DNA of 36,698 nucleotides from a virus: positions 1-36,698 of the IMG/VR virus record IMGVR_UViG_3300038425_000588. One strand, 5' to 3'. Below the pieces are notes generated by a model. The model ran no database searches, was not told the DNA's origin, and was given only the letters and a program-made list of their open reading frames with translations. The translations under genes and the position numbers were made by a program. Every line of letters begins with the position of its first letter. Position 1 is the stretch's first letter. Shown piece by piece: positions 8,538 through 25,028 of the stretch.

Positions 8538-9871
8538 CGAAGCAGGTAAATATAGACTCGGACGAAGATCCCACTCTCCCCCATTTAAGAATATACGACG
8601 ATCGCTCAATCTTGTACGAAAAAGACGGCAGAAGACTTCAAGTCTTCCGAGAAGGAAGTCAGACAAGAGAAGCCCAAAAACGTGCAGATTACATTCGAAA
8701 GAGGTTTACTGAAGGTTTTCTCGACTCAGTTATCAAGCGTTGCAAGGAAGGCAAAGTCGATTTCGAAAGAATTAGTGATGACCACAAAGAGATGTTGAAA
8801 AAGCTCGTGGATGCCATAACAAGCGAAGTGGGAAGAGCCATTGTTGGTTTGGCAATCCTCCAGATGGCTACAAAAGCGATTGAACCAAAACAGAGCGTAA
8901 GGCTTCACAAATCCGGTCGAGGGAGCTTTTCTTGGGCGGAAGGAGTCCCTATGAGGGTTTTAGACTCAGGATTCGTTACTCCATTTCTGCGAAAAGAGAA
9001 TTTACTCAAGGTAAACAAATATGGAGTAATGATGACACGCAGTCTAGCGGAAAACTATCCCTATACGAAATTCTACAAAGCAGCTATACGCGGTGCCAAA
9101 AGAGAATGGACAGAGCTTGTCGATCTTCTGGAAGCCAATAAGATCGACGCAAAAACAGCTCTTGAATATTCCTTATGCCTTCTGATTAAGAGGTCCAAAC
9201 AATTTCAGGACCTTGCTACCGAAGTAGTCGACTTGGCTAGAAAGAAATCAGCCGCAGTCAAGAACCTTGAACAAGTTTTGACATTACTTATCAAACACAT
9301 GGCGAACCCCGGTCTGCCTGCAGCACGCTTGCTTGAGGTCGGGATGCACTCGTTGATGCAAGCTATTAAGACATTGGGTGGCTTGGGAGCATTGGAATTA
9401 AGAACCCTCTCTCAAATGAGGCAAGCGAACAAGAAGGCCGGCAATATTGCAGACATAGAACTAACCCAAGCAGACGCGATCGCTGAAGCATGGGACGCAA
9501 AATACGGAAAACCATACCTGTACGACGAATTGCTAGAATTGCATGACAAACTTTCTCAGGAGCAGTTTCCTGAACTGCGAATTGTTGGCTTCGTGACTGA
9601 GACAAAGCCGGATCTGCGCGATGATGTAACTGACAAGATGACCGAACTGCAGGAGGAATTCGAAGTGAAAATAGTCATCTTGCGCCTGCAAGAGTGGGTG
9701 ACACTACAAGCTAGCCGCTTCAAGACTACTGAAAGAGAGAAGTTAGCAAAGCTTTGGCTAGTCGCCTATGCCGAGAGCCTTGCTTTACGCAGGCCTTTGA
9801 TGGCTCCTATAGACGAACCAACAGAAACATGGCTCCAGGCTCTAAAGGAACTACTTTCGAAAACCAGTTGA
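8534..9871 (+). CDS. Putative type II restriction endonuclease partner of the methyltransferase
   Basis: 445-aa protein starting at TTG 8534 and overlapping the methyltransferase stop (TTGA). Identification rests mainly on context: tight coupling to an m5C methyltransferase and a mismatch glycosylase gene downstream. The segment after residue 125 (SVRLHKSGRGSFSWAEGVPM, then YGVMMTRSLAENYPYTKFYK) resembles what I recall of SacI-family endonucleases, but I cannot confirm this. The C-terminal part (PELRIVGFVTETKPDLRDD, then VKIVILRLQEWV) has alternating strands like a nuclease or recognition core. A clear PD-(D/E)xK triad is not obvious. Cleavage specificity is unknown. Confidence 0.62.
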   Translation: MTKQVNIDSDEDPTLPHLRIYDDRSILYEKDGRRLQVFREGSQTREAQKRADYIRKRFTEGFLDSVIKRCKEGKVDFERISDDHKEMLKKLVDAITSEVGRAIVGLAILQMATKAIEPKQSVRLHKSGRGSFSWAEGVPMRVLDSGFVTPFLRKENLLKVNKYGVMMTRSLAENYPYTKFYKAAIRGAKREWTELVDLLEANKIDAKTALEYSLCLLIKRSKQFQDLATEVVDLARKKSAAVKNLEQVLTLLIKHMANPGLPAARLLEVGMHSLMQAIKTLGGLGALELRTLSQMRQANKKAGNIADIELTQADAIAEAWDAKYGKPYLYDELLELHDKLSQEQFPELRIVGFVTETKPDLRDDVTDKMTELQEEFEVKIVILRLQEWVTLQASRFKTTEREKLAKLWLVAYAESLALRRPLMAPIDEPTETWLQALKELLSKTS

Positions 9872-12858: not shown

Positions 12859-14286
12859 CTATTTTTTCCAGAAAAGGTAAGCCTTTGTTTGTATCAAGAA
12901 ACTGCAGATCTTTATGAGGCTTGCAAGCTTCTCTAGGTTTGCGTTTGCTATTTCTTTCTGATAAGCATCTCTTGTGCCAAAGGGAAGGTCATTCGAGAAG
13001 CTTTTCAGAAAACGCGGATGCCTCTGCTTGGCTAAGGCTTCTCTTATTTTCGCTACTCCTTCTTCATTCAGCATTTGAAGCGTCTTCAGCACGTAGTTTG
13101 TGCTACCGAGCAGCTGAGTGTTAAACCCGAGGCCCTCGAGAACATCCATGATCCTCTCAGCTTCTTTTGGCGGGTGCTGTTCCACTATTCTCTTCATTCC
13201 GGCCTTTTCCGCAAACGGGTTATACTTTGCCATCACAGCTGACATTTCAACATAGTCTGTTCCAGCAAGGGCTAACGTCTCCCTGACAAGTCTAACGCCT
13301 AAGCCCACTGTTCTATACTTTGGATGGACAACAACCCTACTGATGACACTCAGCTTCTCATTCAGCTCCCGCATGCTCATCCTCGGAAGAACAAGCCTTC
13401 GCCCAAAGCTTGCAGACGGCGGATAACAGTACACGATCACCCCGCAAAGCTCATCGCCACGCTTCAAACAGAAAATCCTACGCGGCGCACTTATTCGGTG
13501 ACTGCGATAATGAAAACTCGCCAAGGTCCGCCAATCTTCCGTAGAACCCTCTTCAACACGCATCTCCTTGACTAAGCTGCACTCTCCGGCAGGCCCGTTT
13601 GGGAAATATCTGATGGTGATCTCTTTCCCAAACCTTTTGTGAACGTGAACACTGGGATGCAAGTCTTCAAACAGGTCCAGGTGTGTAGTCGCTGCTAACA
13701 CTGCCTTGCCCTGTTGACGTGCAAGCTTCTGAAGGTTAAAAGCCACGATCTTCGCGGTGTCTCGGTCCAAGGAAGCGGCAAACTCGTCTAGGATCCACCA
13801 CTGCTTATCGCTTTCAACAAGCTTGGCCAGACGATACCTGTATTTTTGTCCGTCGCTGAGCTGGTCGTAGGATCGCAAGAAGAGGAAAGCGTCGCCCAGG
13901 CCCACCTTAGCCAGTAGCTCAAGGCCCTCTTCAACCGTCTTGCCGACAGTCTCGATCAGCGGCTTATCATGAGGAACCTGGATATCTGCGACGTCGACTG
14001 CAATGTCTCCGAGGTCCTTCTTGATGGCGCGTAGGAGGACGCTCTTTCCGCTGCCAGAGTCGCCGGTTATGTACACGATGTCTGTGGGGTTTATTTTCAA
14101 TTCTGCATCCAGGACGGTGAACCTGTGCTCTTCGTCGACGCCGAGTCCAAAAGCCTCAGCCACAGCTGATGTTCTGGGCGTTAAGGCTACCGCTGTGTTG
14201 TACGAAATGTTGAAGGAAAACGTGTTCCGGGTCCTGTCGTAAGTCCTGCGGACCTTTCTGATGTGGAAGAACTCGTGTCTGTGCAT
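12859..14286 (-). CDS. ABC-type ATPase fused to GNAT acetyltransferase domain (COG2401-like)
   Basis: 475 aa from ATG 14286; the frame extends to TTG 14370 without a better start. N-terminal ABC ATPase: Walker A GDSGSGKS (75-82), signature LSDGQ (143-147), Walker B WWILDEF (163-169), H-loop ATTHLD (His202). From about residue 250 a GNAT N-acetyltransferase domain follows, with the acetyl-CoA loop near VVVHPKYRTVGLGVRLV. This fusion is a recognised archaeal family (COG2401) without a firmly known function. No membrane part is present, so transport is unlikely; soluble ABC ATPases usually work on nucleic acids or ribosomes. It is divergent from the HhH gene to its right. Confidence 0.85.
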   Translation of the reverse strand: MHRHEFFHIRKVRRTYDRTRNTFSFNISYNTAVALTPRTSAVAEAFGLGVDEEHRFTVLDAELKINPTDIVYITGDSGSGKSVLLRAIKKDLGDIAVDVADIQVPHDKPLIETVGKTVEEGLELLAKVGLGDAFLFLRSYDQLSDGQKYRYRLAKLVESDKQWWILDEFAASLDRDTAKIVAFNLQKLARQQGKAVLAATTHLDLFEDLHPSVHVHKRFGKEITIRYFPNGPAGECSLVKEMRVEEGSTEDWRTLASFHYRSHRISAPRRIFCLKRGDELCGVIVYCYPPSASFGRRLVLPRMSMRELNEKLSVISRVVVHPKYRTVGLGVRLVRETLALAGTDYVEMSAVMAKYNPFAEKAGMKRIVEQHPPKEAERIMDVLEGLGFNTQLLGSTNYVLKTLQMLNEEGVAKIREALAKQRHPRFLKSFSNDLPFGTRDAYQKEIANANLEKLASLIKICSFLIQTKAYLFWKK

Positions 14287-14500
14287 GGTATCCACTGACT
14301 CCAAAGTTAAGTTTGTCAAGAAAAAACTCTTCGGGGCTTGTATGGGTGAAGACGTGCCCACGTTAACCAAGGAGGCGACTCAAACCTTCGAAATAATGAA
14401 TAGTCAACGTGCGCGCACTTTCCTGCCTATTGATTAATGAGACGCGCGCTTCTAGAAATCCTAAAAGCGTACGAATTGAATCATACAGGAGTTGATCAAT

Positions 14501-16816: not shown

Positions 16817-17823
16817 CTCAAATCGACTCCTATGACTTCGATGCACCCGCCCCAGCCGTTGACAAAAAGGTTAACTTGCGAAATGTCTGGCGTGTCGATC
16901 ATGTACGAGTAGTTCATGAGTCCGGTTCCGCTTGCGCTGTTGTAATAGTCAGTTGCAGTTCCGAATGAGATGCCTCTCTGAATGCCGACGCCAATGAACT
17001 TCGTTGGGTCGTTCCAGAGCGGATTCAGAATGACGTTAATAGTGGAAAGCTGGCTGAACGTAAGATTTAGGGGAGAATGATTCACCGGGCCTAGAATCCA
17101 TGGACAAGCGACAACGCTGACGTAAACATTCGTGTTTGAGTTCCGCAGGCTGAAGGTTATCGTATGCGCCGTGCCCACAGAATACGGTAAGAAAACTCTT
17201 CCCGATACACCAAACCCGTTCGTGTTATCAGGCGAGAGCCTTTCAGTCCAATTAACCTGGACGCTGTCGATTGAGACGCTGACGCCATTTGTAAGATTAT
17301 CGCCGACGTTCTCAAGGTTCGTCTTTGCGCTCGCCGTCACGGCATAAACTTGAATGGCATATGTTGCCTGACTTAACGGGCCTAGCGGCGTGTTTCTGCG
17401 GGCTACCGTCAACGGTATTCCCGAACTGTAGACGGCAAATGTGGCCGCTTGAATGTCGTTGAACAGCGTATATCCCGCGTACATGAAGTATATGTGCGCT
17501 GAATTAGACACATAATTCCCTTCGAAAAGAACGTCATAGGTTCCCGCAGCAAGCCAGACAGCAGCGAAGAACGTTGTCTGAGAATATGAAACGCTAGTGC
17601 TCAACGCCCACACGTATATGGTACCGACTTTCAGCCTGCAATTGAATCCGCTCAGGCCTCCATCTATTGAAAATTTGAACATGACGAGGCCAGTGTTTGG
17701 TATCGTTATGTTGCCATAGTCATGTATCGTGCCTAAAGTTGATGGGAAGGCATAGGTCGTCGAATTGCTTATCAGTCCGAGGTCTAGCGCTATTAACCGT
17801 TCCTGTTCGCTTATCGGAGCCAT
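16813..17823 (-). CDS. Beta-rich virion protein, probable distal tail or receptor-binding protein
   Basis: 336-aa protein whose ATG overlaps the tape-measure stop (TAATG). It is dominated by short strands with many Ser, Thr, Asn, Gly and Tyr and few charged residues, typical of secreted or virion surface proteins. Examples are TTYAFPSTLGTIHDYGNITI, TYDVLFEGNYVSNSAHIYF and AHTITFSLRNSNTNVYVSVV. No signal peptide. In siphoviruses the gene after the tape measure usually codes for the distal tail protein or tail tip, so this is the best guess; a fibre-like receptor-binding role is also possible. The family is not recognised. Confidence 0.65.
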   Translation of the reverse strand: MAPISEQERLIALDLGLISNSTTYAFPSTLGTIHDYGNITIPNTGLVMFKFSIDGGLSGFNCRLKVGTIYVWALSTSVSYSQTTFFAAVWLAAGTYDVLFEGNYVSNSAHIYFMYAGYTLFNDIQAATFAVYSSGIPLTVARRNTPLGPLSQATYAIQVYAVTASAKTNLENVGDNLTNGVSVSIDSVQVNWTERLSPDNTNGFGVSGRVFLPYSVGTAHTITFSLRNSNTNVYVSVVACPWILGPVNHSPLNLTFSQLSTINVILNPLWNDPTKFIGVGIQRGISFGTATDYYNSASGTGLMNYSYMIDTPDISQVNLFVNGWGGCIEVIGVDLR

Positions 17824-20174
17824 TAATACGTCACAGCTCCTTGTCTGATTCTTTTCTGAGTCGTAGATGAGTAAGAGGCTGTTGGCTCGACAACGATGCT
17901 CTTCAGCTTGTCCAGAACCTGCCTCGATGCCAAATCAACTGTCGCTTTATCAGCGCTCCCTTCAATATTCACAAGAGGTGCGGTAATATGGAGCACTATT
18001 GGCGCTTTTCCGCCTGCTCCTGGCAGAGCTTCTGGGATACCGAACCCGCCGACACCAGGGAGACCTTCAGCTTGCAGCCCTTGGAACTGGGCACGAATCT
18101 TCGCGACAGATTTCTCAGTCGTGTCCTCCATCTTCTGTAGCATGTCAGTCCAAATGCTCCCCCCTACGATATTATGTTGAAGCATTCGCATAGTTGTAGT
18201 TACGTCATCTGCAATGCCATGGAAAGAGCCTGTGATCTGCGTCGTTGCTGTGTCTGTTTGGGCAGCGACTTGACTGGCGGTTTCACCTGCGAGTTTGATG
18301 GCGTCAAGGATAGTTGCTCCCGACGTGTCCCATGTCGCTGCGAGCTTCCACTCTTCCAGCTGCTTTATCATCGGGGCAACATCCGCAGCGCCCGCCGCGT
18401 AATCTTTACGCAGCGTTGCCAAGTCAGCCTCGATATTTGAGACAAGTGTATCCTGCTTGCTTGTCGCGCAATTCACGTAAGCTTGAATGTTATCCTGAGC
18501 TTGGCCGACGAGTCCCCTGCTGATTAAGTCATTCGTATCAGTGACGATCTGCTCCATACTGGCAGAAGAATCAGCTTGAAGACTTGCGAACTTCCCAGTT
18601 GCACAGTTTTGGAATGTCTGAAGGTCAGCCTGAGCTTTTCCGATAAGCTGCTCTTCAATCGTCTGCGGAATCTGCGCTTGGGCAGCCTTGAAGCTATCGA
18701 TGATTTTCTCAGCATCAGACAAACTAAGACCGTACTTATTCGCGAAATCTTGAACGATTCCAAGCGCCTTGTTAAAGTCCCCAGCGTTGAACGCGTCATC
18801 AAAAGCGGCCTTGACAGCGCCAAGATTCGTGTCCGCTGAAGCTTTCATCTCATCATACTTCGTCGTCAAATCGCTTATGAAAGTCGCGGCATCGCTTGCC
18901 GCTTTCTGCGCAGCTTCAACAGCAGCCTTCTGGCTTTCGAGACTTGGAATGGTGGCGTCAAGCTGCTTTTTCAACTCATCTTCTTTCGCAGTGAGTGTCT
19001 CGACAGCTGCTTGATCTTTCTCCTGAGCTTGCTTAGTCCAGTCAAGTGCTAGAATCTTCGCTTGAAGACCCGCTATTTCCTTGTCAAGTTCATCCTTGCT
19101 CCTTTTGTAAGCATCAGCCAGGTCACTTATTTGACCGTCGAGAACCTTGACCTCATCCCCGGCGTCTGCAGCCTTGGCCTCGTATTCGTTCAGGGTCGTC
19201 GCATTTCTCCATAGGACCTCGTCGACACCCCATATTGACGCATTCGCAGCATCAAGCTGATTTTGAAAGTCCTTAATGTTCTGCGATGTTGAGATGAATT
19301 TGTCGCCTTCGTCTTTGACAGAAGCACCTAACATCTGCACCGAATCCGCAGCCTGCTTGTTTCCGCCGGTGAAGAGGCCGATGAAGCCGTTCCAAGCGTT
19401 GCCTATGTCATTCGCAACGGTTACGATGAAGTTTCCAGCAGTCCGAAACGCGTTGACGACGGCGTCCCATGCACCTGGAATAAACGCGAGAGCAGCCACA
19501 AGGGCGCCAATCGCAGCTATGACCAAAAAGATCGGGTTCGCGTCCAACACGACATTCATCGTTGCCTGGATGCCTTCCCAAATCTCAGTAGCATGAGAAA
19601 CAGTCGTAATCATCGAGACAAGGCTTGGAATAACCGTTAGCGCCGACATAACCATGCTTGTACTCAGGTTTCTCTGGGCCATATCTGCCCTTTCAAGACT
19701 AACATTGTGCGCGTCCTCAGCGATGTTCAGCTTGTCAAGGGCAGCTTGAGCTTGAGAACTGTTAGTGCCGTACTGTTCAACAGCAGTGTTATAGTCTAGC
19801 TGCGCCTTCTCTAGGGTTTCTGTGCTACGCTGAACCATCAGGTTCGCGCGGTCCACCGCGACCTGGCGATTCTCAACATTCATGAAACTCATGGCAAGTG
19901 TGGCACCTGAAAGTGCTAAGTTATTCAGCGCCATTACGCTTTGGCCGCAGCTAGCCTGCACGTCTGCTTGACTATTCTGAAGATTCTGCCCAGCGTCGTT
20001 GACTTGATTATAGTCGTCTGCAATCTGTGAAGACGCATTATCAGTTGTCGTTACAAGGTCTTGCGTGTTTCCTTCAATGTCCGTAAAAGTTGTGGAAAGA
20101 TTAGAGCCAACGCTCTGGATCACGTTTGAAGCCTCATCGTAGGCTATCAGGTGAATCTCAACGTCTTCGCTCAT
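17823..20174 (-). CDS. Tail tape measure protein
   Basis: 783-aa protein, the largest here. It is Ala/Gln/Asp-rich with long coiled-coil stretches (about 100-170 and 300-640; repeated KAQADLQTF-type helices) and a hydrophobic region near 175-245 (LTVIPSLVSMITTVS, then FLVIAAIGALVAALAFIPGA), the usual make-up of siphovirus tape measure proteins. These set tail length and enter the host membrane during DNA delivery. It directly follows the tail assembly chaperone, as in most siphoviruses, and its length predicts a tail of moderate size. The C-terminal part has a Gly/Pro-rich linker (GLPGVGGFGIPEALPG). Confidence 0.9.
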   Translation of the reverse strand: MSEDVEIHLIAYDEASNVIQSVGSNLSTTFTDIEGNTQDLVTTTDNASSQIADDYNQVNDAGQNLQNSQADVQASCGQSVMALNNLALSGATLAMSFMNVENRQVAVDRANLMVQRSTETLEKAQLDYNTAVEQYGTNSSQAQAALDKLNIAEDAHNVSLERADMAQRNLSTSMVMSALTVIPSLVSMITTVSHATEIWEGIQATMNVVLDANPIFLVIAAIGALVAALAFIPGAWDAVVNAFRTAGNFIVTVANDIGNAWNGFIGLFTGGNKQAADSVQMLGASVKDEGDKFISTSQNIKDFQNQLDAANASIWGVDEVLWRNATTLNEYEAKAADAGDEVKVLDGQISDLADAYKRSKDELDKEIAGLQAKILALDWTKQAQEKDQAAVETLTAKEDELKKQLDATIPSLESQKAAVEAAQKAASDAATFISDLTTKYDEMKASADTNLGAVKAAFDDAFNAGDFNKALGIVQDFANKYGLSLSDAEKIIDSFKAAQAQIPQTIEEQLIGKAQADLQTFQNCATGKFASLQADSSASMEQIVTDTNDLISRGLVGQAQDNIQAYVNCATSKQDTLVSNIEADLATLRKDYAAGAADVAPMIKQLEEWKLAATWDTSGATILDAIKLAGETASQVAAQTDTATTQITGSFHGIADDVTTTMRMLQHNIVGGSIWTDMLQKMEDTTEKSVAKIRAQFQGLQAEGLPGVGGFGIPEALPGAGGKAPIVLHITAPLVNIEGSADKATVDLASRQVLDKLKSIVVEPTASYSSTTQKRIRQGAVTY

Positions 20175-20180
20175 CTAGCC

Positions 20181-20722
20181 TTAACCCTTCTGCTGTTCGT
20201 AGTACCATCTTGCCCATTCTTTCAAAAACTGAATTTGAAAAGGAGTCAGCTCACCGATCATTTGAAGTGTGTAACCGTACTCATGCGCGATGAATCCGAT
20301 GGTCTGCGCTCTTCCGTCGTTTGCGACCCATTCGGCGACGGCGTCTGAGGGCGCTGAAAAAAACTGCCCTCCATCTGAAGCTTCGTCAAGAGCCGTACAA
20401 CGACTTCGTAAGGCATCTTTCGTATGTCCTCGACTTTCAGGCCTTCATTAACTGGCTCTAGCTGCTTGAACAGAAGCTGAATGCTTCGGTCCCTGTTGTC
20501 TTTGCACTTCTCGATGATCTCGTTAAGCTCATCGTAGTTCAGCAGCACATAGCGAATCGTGCCCAAGTCCTCGTCAACGATTTCTCTAACTTCTTTAGCC
20601 TTCCGCACGATCTCTTTCGGGTCGAAGATTCTGACTCTTGCAAGCCTCTCAGCTTCAGCAGCATTAAGAGCCTCTTCCATCTCTGACGCTTTTCCCCAGT
20701 CTATCTTATCATTTTCACTCAT
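20181..20722 (-). CDS. Tail assembly chaperone, long form made by -1 ribosomal frameshift
   Basis: Reading 0 frame from ATG 20722 through the heptamer T-TTT-TTT (20363-20357) and then shifting by -1 gives 122 + 58 residues. The added 58 residues run from SAPSDAVAEWVANDGRAQTI to LKEWARWYYEQQKG and stop at TAA 20183-20181, seven bases before the tape-measure ATG. This mirrors gpG/gpGT of phage lambda, where the long form binds the tape measure and recruits tail tube subunits. The 0-frame tail after the slip site is Pro/Ser/Arg-rich and looks unstructured, while the -1 frame looks like a folded domain. I have not modelled a downstream RNA structure. Confidence 0.82.
20258..20722 (-). CDS. Tail assembly chaperone, short form (gpG-like)
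   Basis: 154 aa from ATG 20722, which has GGAGGT 7 nt upstream; the frame's upstream ATG at 20743 has no such site. It is charged and helical: FDPKEIVRKAKEVREIVDED, then YDELNEIIEKCKDN and VEDIRKMPYEVVVRLLTKLQ. Length and position just before the tape measure match siphovirus tail assembly chaperones. The last 32 residues after GSFF are Pro/Ser/Thr-rich and are replaced in the frameshifted form. The product is needed in excess over the long form and is probably absent from the mature virion. Confidence 0.8.
   Translation of the reverse strand: MSENDKIDWGKASEMEEALNAAEAERLARVRIFDPKEIVRKAKEVREIVDEDLGTIRYVLLNYDELNEIIEKCKDNRDRSIQLLFKQLEPVNEGLKVEDIRKMPYEVVVRLLTKLQMEGSFFQRPQTPSPNGSQTTEERRPSDSSRMSTVTHFK
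20357..20363 (-). other. Slippery heptamer T TTT TTT for programmed -1 frameshift
   Basis: On the coding (minus) strand the codons are AGT TTT TTT CAG, so the seven Ts are phased exactly as X XXY YYZ. Both tRNA-Phe anticodons re-pair perfectly after a -1 slip. It sits at the point where the -1 frame becomes protein-like. Confidence 0.82.
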
Positions 20723-20785
20723 GTTCATTACCTCCGAGACCATGAATTGGCGCCAAATGCGCCGAGAAAAGAAAAGGATGGATGC

Positions 20786-21187
20786 TTAGAACGTGGTTAT
20801 TATGCGGTCGCTTCCTTCGCCTGTTATCTTCTGGCCAACTATGCCCTTCTGGTCAACTTTGATGTTGTGCGCTATGAGAACGACGTTCTTGATCGTTATC
20901 TTTGGCAAGCCGACGCTTGTGCCTGCTGGGCCTATAACGAAGTCCACAACCTGGTTTCCGTACATGACTTGGGAGAAGAAGGCATCTATGTACATTCTGT
21001 CAACCGCTATCTTGAAGTGCTTGTTACCTGCTGCGAGAATGGCTGCATGGTCGCTGTTAAGCTGGAACTCTTTGATGAGGTCAGCTGTAAGGTCCTCTGT
21101 GACCCCCTGAGCGTAGCCGATAGTTGTCGCTGTGCCCCCTGAAACATATTGGACAACGGCGTTACGACCTATCAATGGAGTGCTCAT
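20786..21187 (-). CDS. Major tail tube protein
   Basis: 133-aa protein from ATG 21187 with GGTGA 7 nt upstream. The sequence is a compact beta-sandwich: VVQYVSGGTATTIGYAQGV, then LNSDHAAILAAGNKHFKIAV, FVIGPAGTSVGLPKITIKNV and GQKITGEGSDRIITTF. Size, early strands and position before the chaperone and tape measure fit a siphovirus tail tube subunit, which polymerises into hexameric rings around the tape measure. Identification rests on gene order and fold impression rather than a motif. Confidence 0.72.
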   Translation of the reverse strand: MSTPLIGRNAVVQYVSGGTATTIGYAQGVTEDLTADLIKEFQLNSDHAAILAAGNKHFKIAVDRMYIDAFFSQVMYGNQVVDFVIGPAGTSVGLPKITIKNVVLIAHNIKVDQKGIVGQKITGEGSDRIITTF

Positions 21188-21200
21188 GATATTTTCACCT

Positions 21201-21701
21201 CTATTCAGGTTTTACAAGATTCATAAGGAAGTTCGCGAGAACCATGTTCAAGAAATCTTCCTTATGAGCGCTAAAGTGTTCTTCTGGAATAGCCCCTCTC
21301 AAGTCAAAGTGCCATTGGGCAAAGACAAGTGCTAGGAACTCTTCAAGGCTTAGAGTCTCAAGAAACTTACTAACTTCTTTTCTGACTAACAGCATGGCCA
21401 ACCCGAGCCACTGCCTGTAATACCGATCGTCTTCGCTGAAGTAAACAAGCAGCTTCCGAGAGAGTTGCAGTAACCGCTGAAAGTTCCTGTCCTTCAAGTC
21501 TGCGATAGTTTGAAATGGTACGTCATCAAAACGGCCAGCGATGACCTCAGTCTCATAGACATTATTCATCTGCTGGAAGACGTGTTCAATTATCTCTGTC
21601 TGCGGATAACTCGGCTTCAACTCAGGCATTAAACGGTTGAGAATGCCCACGGCGAAGTTAACAAAGTTCTTTCGCCAGTGCAGCTTCGCCCACTTATCCA
21701 A
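21201..21701 (-). CDS. Hypothetical helical protein between tail completion and tail tube genes
   Basis: 166-aa protein starting at TTG 21701 and overlapping the upstream gp10-like gene by 8 bases. Mostly helical with aromatic residues: LHWRKNFVNFAVGILNRLMP, then FQRLLQLSRKLLVYFSEDDR and LGLAMLLVRKEVSKFLETLS. No transmembrane span or motif is evident. In many tailed viruses a tail terminator is at this place, but this protein looks too helical for that. Function unknown; a virion assembly role is inferred from context. Confidence 0.6.
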   Translation of the reverse strand: MDKWAKLHWRKNFVNFAVGILNRLMPELKPSYPQTEIIEHVFQQMNNVYETEVIAGRFDDVPFQTIADLKDRNFQRLLQLSRKLLVYFSEDDRYYRQWLGLAMLLVRKEVSKFLETLSLEEFLALVFAQWHFDLRGAIPEEHFSAHKEDFLNMVLANFLMNLVKPE

Positions 21702-22086
21702 GGACTATGCCACTCTCCTCGGCTGATTGAATAACGGCGTTAGCCATTTCCTGCGGCAGCTCACCCTGATGCTGCTCGATCGCGCGGGTCATGTACAGCC
21801 GCGCATACATCCTGAACGTGCCCCATTCCACGTATCCGGCGTATGGAGCACGAGCATAAAGCGTGAAAGCCCATCTTGCTAGGACCTCAGACCCGAGTGT
21901 GCTTAACAAGAAACCTGTGCGAACTGGGACCAAGATGCGAGCAGTATCTATGATTCTGTTTGCAACTGTCTCGATGGCAGTCATAATGTTGCGGTCAAGC
22001 GCCCCTGGGAAGGCTGACTGCAGAGCGGATGAGAATTCATCAGCATAGTTCACTGTGCACTCGATCCTTGCGCTCACAAGCATCAT
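21694..22086 (-). CDS. HK97 gp10-like tail completion (neck) protein
   Basis: 130 aa from ATG 22086, which overlaps the stop of the upstream gene (ATGA); a longer frame reaches GTG 22104. The central signature ARILVPVRTGFLLSTLG followed by FTLYARAPYAGYVEWGT is characteristic of HK97 gp10-like proteins: a hydrophobic helix, the PVxTGxLxxS motif, strands, and the YAxYVExGT motif. These proteins join head and tail. The C-terminal helix (MYARLYMTRAIEQHQGELPQ) also fits the family. Confidence 0.85.
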   Translation of the reverse strand: MMLVSARIECTVNYADEFSSALQSAFPGALDRNIMTAIETVANRIIDTARILVPVRTGFLLSTLGSEVLARWAFTLYARAPYAGYVEWGTFRMYARLYMTRAIEQHQGELPQEMANAVIQSAEESGIVLG

Positions 22087-22313
22087 CTCGAAATTGAGAA
22101 CCACTGAATCCTCTTGGACCTAGGCATCTTTGTTAGAAAGCCAAGAGTTACAAGTTGGTTTAGATATGACGACTCTATTGCTCTGCATCTTCTTGTTTCT
22201 TCAGCAACCACATCAGCATTGACCAATCCAAGCCTAATTGTTGCCACGTATGTCTTCTGAAGATGTTCTGGAAGTTCCAGAATCCTATTAGTTGTATTAA
22301 TTACAGTCCGCAT
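22083..22313 (-). CDS. Small helix-turn-helix protein within the tail operon
   Basis: 76 aa from ATG 22313 (TTG 22322 possible). The segment NADVVAEETRRCRAIESSYL followed by NQLVTLGFLTKMPRSKRIQW reads as a winged helix: helix, recognition helix with ES/SYL, and a basic wing. Such HTH proteins with RRxRAxESxYLxxLxxxG are typical of small archaeal regulators. It lies between two structural genes and overlaps the next by 4 bases, so it is co-expressed with late genes and may feed back on them. Confidence 0.6.
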   Translation of the reverse strand: MRTVINTTNRILELPEHLQKTYVATIRLGLVNADVVAEETRRCRAIESSYLNQLVTLGFLTKMPRSKRIQWFSISR

Positions 22314-24134: not shown

Positions 24135-25028
24135 TTATGTGGTTGCTAGTCCTGTTATTTGGGCGATGCATTCTCCGTTCAGCACAACTGGCGCGTATCT
24201 CGTGGTTAGCTCGATGTCAACACTGTCAAACTCTTTCTTCGGGTCCAAATCACTCATCAGTGGTCTCTTTATGACGAAGAATCCGAGCGGAGCGTAGCTT
24301 GAGCTTAAGTTCTGTCCGGTGCTTACGACGTAAGCTGTGCCTGCGCTGCAGACGTTGCTGACGTACAGGTTCAGGCCGTAGATGTTGCCGATAGCGCCTG
24401 TCTGGACAACAGGCTCTCCGTACTGGCTGGCCAGGGCGAACTGGGGCAGGTACTTCAGGTCACGAGCTTGAATCGGGTTGCAGATCAGTGAGTCAGCGAC
24501 GAAGTTTTTGCTTGCGATGTATGCGTCTGCTGCCAAGATGTCCTTAGAGCCGAGGCCGCCTGTTATGGTGAACTCTGTGCCCGTAGCGCTCAAAGTCTTC
24601 CCTGAGCCAGCTGATGAGTAAGTCGCTGCGGCTGCGATGACGTTCATGCAGTCCAGGTCTATCTGGTACGCGACACGTCTTGCCAGACGCCTCAGCTGCT
24701 GCTCGATCACCGGGATATACAAGTCTTCGATGTTCTCTCTGCTTATGCGTTCTCTTGCGCCCTTCTTATACGGCGTAACTGTCACAGTGCTAAGCGGTGT
24801 GAAGTCCATCATGATCTCTGCGCCTTCCGCGATCTCCGTGATGCCGATGCTTCTCGAGCCGTTTTCCTTGACGAAAGTTGCTGTGCGACCTGCGACTATT
24901 GGGAACTCTGGAAGGAGCCTCTTGACGACAAGGGCTGGCATTGTCAGCTCGATGATTTTCTTGTGCAAAGTCGGATACTGAACTGCTCCTGTGTCAACCC
25001 ATGATAGTGCGTCTCTTACAAAAGACAT
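24135..25028 (-). CDS. Major capsid protein, HK97 fold
   Basis: 297-aa protein from ATG 25028 with GGTGAT about 5 nt upstream. The sequence follows the pattern of HK97-type capsid proteins: an N-terminal helix, an extended loop (FVKENGSRSIGITEIAEGAE), a spine-helix region (VIEQQLRRLARRVAYQIDLD), the A-domain segment ADSLICNPIQARDLKYLPQF, and closing strands (IELTTRYAPVVLNGECIAQI). Neighbouring portal, protease and decoration genes support this. The protein forms the icosahedral shell. No long N-terminal delta domain is present, consistent with a separate scaffold. Confidence 0.88.
   Translation of the reverse strand: MSFVRDALSWVDTGAVQYPTLHKKIIELTMPALVVKRLLPEFPIVAGRTATFVKENGSRSIGITEIAEGAEIMMDFTPLSTVTVTPYKKGARERISRENIEDLYIPVIEQQLRRLARRVAYQIDLDCMNVIAAAATYSSAGSGKTLSATGTEFTITGGLGSKDILAADAYIASKNFVADSLICNPIQARDLKYLPQFALASQYGEPVVQTGAIGNIYGLNLYVSNVCSAGTAYVVSTGQNLSSSYAPLGFFVIKRPLMSDLDPKKEFDSVDIELTTRYAPVVLNGECIAQITGLATT

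Follow-up and report, generated by a model that had tools for sequence, protein, structure and literature searches.

The window analysed here is the whole of IMG/VR virus record IMGVR_UViG_3300038425_000588, 36,698 bases in length. Its minus strand carries two overlapping reading frames that meet at a slippery heptamer, a candidate tail assembly chaperone locus for which an earlier reading made from the letters alone (the sequence-only reading) had proposed programmed -1 frameshifting. The locus has the following features.

20357..20363, minus strand: slippery heptamer T TTT TTT (seven T in a row), with 0-frame codons TTT TTT and AGT just before
20258..20722, minus strand: 0-frame open reading frame (ORF), putative short chaperone (gpG-like), 154 amino acids, of which 122 lie up to the site and 32 codons form a tail
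20357..20722, minus strand: shared N-terminal domain, 122 amino acids, modelled by AlphaFold2 as helices and one beta-hairpin (predicted local distance difference test score, pLDDT, 84.7)
20181..20357, minus strand: -1 frame extension (gpT-like), 58 amino acids and TAA (20183-20181), its first base to be re-read after slippage

Minus-strand codons around the site are GAG GGC AGT TTT TTT CAG CGC, and the heptamer (20363-20357) shares its phase with the ATG at 20722, so that the perfect phasing of T-TTT-TTT in AGT TTT TTT CAG reported by the sequence-only reading is confirmed. A second in-frame ATG lies upstream at 20743, and the start at 20722 is the one common to relatives. The 0-frame tail, described earlier as Pro/Ser-rich, is 32 codons long, abounds in Pro, Ser and Thr, and has its stop at 20258. 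The extension has the 58 residues, and the predicted long form the 180 amino acids, that had been read from the sequence; the gap between the -1 stop and the tape-measure ATG (20174) is six bases, not the 7 given before.

Four close relatives of the locus were found by the chaperone, 76 loci by the capsid protein, and more by chaperone profiles. Collapsing identical stretches left 88 distinct loci with both domains, the window counted, which form 26 clusters when grouped at 65% identity of the extension; since sequences within a cluster are not independent, counts are reported here and no single p-value. The second frame is in the -1 relation in 88 of 88 loci, with +1 relations and in-frame fusions in none. 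An in-phase heptamer of the form X XXY YYZ stands at the aligned place, where both frames are open, in all 88, and the conservation of heptamer and extension among related archaeal viruses, which the sequence-only reading had left to comparison, therefore holds in every paired locus. Heptamers of this form occur in phase at 0.26% of codons in long ORFs of these viruses (152,921 codons, with only 12 in-phase occurrences of T TTT TTN), and such background rates give a chance expectation of about 0.09 heptamers per locus.

YYY is UUU in every one of the 88 loci, and X and Z each take all four bases. Counting the most downstream heptamer where several overlap, the site is T TTT TTA in 27 loci, T TTT TTT in 20, T TTT TTG in 16 and T TTT TTC in 12, and the remaining types are G GGT TTT (8), A AAT TTC (2), A AAT TTT (1), C CCT TTC (1) and C CCT TTT (1). 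A 47-protein tree requires nine or more switches between heptamer types, none of which breaks the rule. Codon usage at the site departs from the norm, because Phe is mostly encoded by TTC in these viruses (TTT makes up 38.5% of Phe codons) and GGT is rare among Gly codons (17%). The protein has an invariant Phe, which may be one reason for the fixed UUU.

Across the 88 loci the 0-frame stop is found anywhere between 1 and 32 codons beyond the site, and the length of the extension stays at 51-63 codons. Extension and heptamer are both gone in locus L151 (reverse strand; also G087:C130), where the N-terminal domain is kept, the site reads GCT GGG TTT CTA and the 0 frame runs as far as the tape-measure start. 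A decayed copy, L173, has stops in both frames and AGT TTC TTG where the heptamer would be expected.

Substitutions among the five closest sequences bear on which of the two frames is kept. Rates at -1 positions 1/2/3 are 0.031/0.025/0.169 in the overlap and 0.071/0.033/0.300 beyond the 0-frame stop. Because -1 position 3 is 0-frame position 2, the concentration of overlap changes there marks the -1 frame as the constrained one; constraint past 20357 confined to the 0 frame, which the sequence-only reading had named as the contrary outcome, was not seen. The third-position rate is lower in the overlap than after the 0-frame stop, which hints at some further constraint. The largest clades show a clear third-position excess within the overlap, and beyond the 0-frame stop it is clear generally.

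The locus very probably encodes the tail assembly chaperone of a tailed virus of Bathyarchaeia and relies on programmed -1 ribosomal frameshifting for its two products, and the sequence evidence fits tandem slippage of the P- and A-site tRNAs. Most ribosomes would read through the site and stop shortly afterwards, giving the short form (154 amino acids in the window). A minority would slip back by one base at U UUU UUU, the P- and A-site tRNAs re-pairing with UUU UUU, and would add 58 codons to give the 180-amino-acid long form, so that the slip rate would set the ratio of short to long form. If the two proteins act as in lambda, the tape measure protein may be coated by the short form, and tail tube subunits may be recruited by the long form through its extension (PMC5009743).

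The likeness to lambda gpG/gpGT, already seen in the sequence-only reading, extends to several features. The gene lies between those for tail tube and tape measure, an order (tail tube, chaperone, tape measure) that holds in the window and recurs in relatives; short and long forms would have a common N-terminus; and the -1 shift lies near the end of the first frame, at an X XXY YYZ site. The lambda site is G GGA AAG, with Y being A, whereas Y is always U here, and the 0-frame tail here reaches up to 32 codons.

Several observations weigh against this interpretation. At Pfam and PHROG cut-offs no named chaperone family gives a significant match to the protein (a match to Phage_TAC_7 in one family member, E 0.038, is below significance), and Foldseek matches to annotated chaperones are weak, with probability up to 0.89. 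Third-position excess within the overlap is weak or absent in the smaller clades. In Escherichia coli constructs U_UUU_UUU and U_UUU_UUA were less shift-prone than A_AAA_AAG (PMC5009743). The downstream stem or pseudoknot envisaged by the sequence-only reading was not detected, the mean z of the folds being 0.13 vs 0.17 for the upstream control (42 sequences), and no Shine-Dalgarno-like element common to all clades was found; a purine-rich stretch directly before the site in the T7 clade is absent in other clades. Such a structure or an upstream Shine-Dalgarno-like element is usual, not obligatory, for -1 frameshifting.

The heptamer of the window lies within a hairpin, GAGGGC...GCCCTC, which its closest relatives have in part. 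This hairpin was rejected as a stimulator because a ribosome at the site would melt it and because it is not found in the wider clade. In further searches, Foldseek gave a weak match of the protein to V5T690 of Methanobacterium virus Drs3, with a probability of 0.97; a fold search of the PDB with the N-terminal domain gave no match, nor did the chaperone and the capsid protein against INPHARED phage records.

Transcriptional slippage, in which an extra base inserted by the RNA polymerase at the T run would let ordinary translation yield the long form, is very unlikely. The seven-T run of the window would suit it, but T runs of just three to five are found at 13 of the 88 loci (eight with GGT TTT ACA and five with A AAT TTC, A AAT TTT, C CCT TTC or C CCT TTT). 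The tandem-codon rule is moreover always kept in phase, and a polymerase site needs no codon phase.

It is highly improbable that small bulge-helix-bulge RNA introns join the chaperone frames, as they apparently do in the capsid gene of relatives, where insertions of such a kind (29-50 nucleotides) are found. Archaeal mRNA introns have previously been mistaken for frameshifts (PMC2738675), which lends the idea some weight, but the chaperone frames overlap and their conserved parts meet at the heptamer, with no inserted segment in 88 of 88 loci. The invariant UUU heptamer would be left unexplained, and folds inspected around the site have no common bulge-helix-bulge form.

The capsid insertions were observed in their own right. 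The major capsid gene of relatives is broken by out-of-frame insertions of 29-50 nucleotides at a minimum of four different positions, at least, as follows.

L013:8085-8115, capsid insertion
L012:179-209, capsid insertion
L011:8085-8115, capsid insertion
L059:8757-8806, capsid insertion
L060:7269-7317, capsid insertion
L066:8764-8792, capsid insertion
L068:8157-8187, capsid insertion
L073:8253-8284, capsid insertion
L075:8215-8243 and 8786-8814, capsid insertions
L058, L062, L072, L077 and L080, capsid insertions in further relatives

Excising the insertion restored a gap-free capsid alignment for the eight insertions tested. At most of the sites the fold is a hairpin like a bulge-helix-bulge, with the insertion ends within the bulges or close to them; this is less clear for the site near residue 73 in L075. 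The insertions resemble tRNA-endonuclease-type mRNA introns of archaea; cbf5 was the sole confirmed gene with such an archaeal mRNA intron in 2009 (PMC2738675). The capsid gene of the window is uninterrupted.

There is very little probability that a start of its own gives the -1 frame as a separate, unfused protein. GTG or TTG codons do occur within the extension in some relatives, but the first possible start in the window lies 32 codons into the 58-codon extension, past much of the conserved core; most loci, including the window, have no start codon before that core, and many relatives are without any. That an ordinary gene in one frame was broken by a sequencing or assembly error at a homopolymer, to which T runs in metagenome assemblies are prone, has a practically negligible probability and is already ruled out by the comparison of the 88 distinct loci, which have the -1 relation with differing heptamers, include a 2.2-Mb contig with two copies and have fused frames in none.

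Programmed -1 frameshifting is thus the preferred reading of the locus, and it has archaeal precedents. It has been predicted in the tail chaperones of the haloarchaeal viruses HVTV-1, HCTV-1, -2, -5 and Hardycor1 (PMC8211752, PMC5009743, PMC7911831). In the haloarchaeal virus sites Y is A and the A-site is A-rich (PMC5009743), whereas Y is U in every member of the Bathyarchaeia-type family; the hosts there are haloarchaea, and here they are Bathyarchaeia and a further class in that phylum. A 2021 review (PMC8211752) gives S. solfataricus fucA1 as the sole archaeal case of programmed -1 frameshifting with an experimental report; unlike the chaperone family, fucA1 is a cellular gene with an A-rich heptamer and is full-length in most homologues. 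The statement of the sequence-only reading that archaea offer few well-supported -1 cases stands as far as this one tested gene goes, and is qualified by the precedents predicted in haloarchaeal viruses. No report of frameshifting in viruses of Bathyarchaeia was found in the literature searched, which covered few subscription journals; the papers there on viruses of this class are silent on the subject. The kind of mechanism is already known; what is new here is the lineage, the depth of the evidence and the U-only A-site rule.

The genes around the locus are those of a tail and capsid module, with portal and terminase genes also present, and a cargo gene lies further off.

17823..20174, minus strand: tape measure protein, 783 amino acids (PHROG tail length tape measure, E 3.6e-6)
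20786..21187, minus strand: putative tail tube (major tail) protein, 133 amino acids (Foldseek, on a model with a modest pLDDT of 64.7)
21694..22104, minus strand: neck/tail completion protein, HK97 gp10-like (phrog_5, E 4.1e-14)
24135..25028, minus strand: major capsid protein, the query with which relatives were fetched
12859..14370, minus strand: ABC ATPase and GNAT cargo gene, with closest relatives in Bathyarchaeota (host evidence)

Foldseek matches of the tail tube model are tail tube proteins of phages (SPP1, lambda), of gene transfer agents and of Haloferax tailed virus 1. No sheath protein was found among the scanned proteins of the window, many of which are without any match, and the record is possibly a fragment. 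The tailed virus is probably siphovirus-like.

Tail modules of the relatives vary in several ways. A second, larger tail-tube-related gene follows the first in L058:10341-11060, L040:9039-9758 and L041:6647-7366. The tape measure gene is split between frames in L005:3540-5709 and L061:13086-14042, through introns, errors or decay. Nine relatives (L014, L018, L023, L024, L027, L054, L057, L064 and L065) have the same capsid family with a different tail module and no chaperone homologue, whole tail modules having been exchanged within one virus group; relatives with another tail module (e.g., L014, L018, L027, L054, L057, L064 and L065) have no bearing on the frameshift question.

The host class Bathyarchaeia is well supported for the window's own virus by homology, because homologous proviruses lie in genomes of the class and because of the ABC-GNAT cargo gene; both agree with the archaeal virus proposed from the letters alone. 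The best relatives of the cargo gene are from Candidatus Bathyarchaeota, with up to 72% identity, and the gene is also found on contigs of Candidatus Bathyarchaeota SRBZ_1. Chaperone homologues were found by profile search in 8 of 257 Bathyarchaeia genomes, one of which has two copies on a single 2.2-Mb contig, and the chaperone is also present in 3 of 7 genomes of another archaeal class of the same phylum. A scan of genome contigs by capsid alignment gave no match, and the host was given instead by the ABC-GNAT gene and the whole-genome profile searches. The ABC ATPase fused to a GNAT domain (12859-14370 in the window) is present in many Bathyarchaeota genomes and is multicopy in some (five A05DMB-2 contigs).

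The fixed UUU in the A-site links the locus to a question of tRNA modification. Wyosine at position 37 of tRNA-Phe has been reported to prevent -1 slippage, and it is reportedly missing in Haloferax volcanii tRNA-Phe, which has only 1-methylguanosine (m1G) (PMC7761594). A search of 12 Bathyarchaeia genomes found the first wyosine enzyme, Taw1 (PF08608), encoded in every one. One tentative and rather doubtful proposal is that the family uses a distinct archaeal -1 signal, in which tRNA-Phe or a UUN-reading tRNA-Leu would slip on A-site UUU without RNA structure and wyosine on tRNA-Phe would set the tail ratio.

Before this, programmed -1 frameshifting in archaea had been tested for a single cellular gene and predicted for a handful of haloviral genes (PMC8211752). 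The family, with its 88 distinct sequences, its spread over two host classes, its four choices each of X and Z and its natural losses as controls, provides strong comparative evidence for -1 frameshifting on non-haloarchaeal ribosomes, and its varied sites are ready-made test cassettes. For annotation, the conserved 58-amino-acid extension would escape ordinary gene calling.
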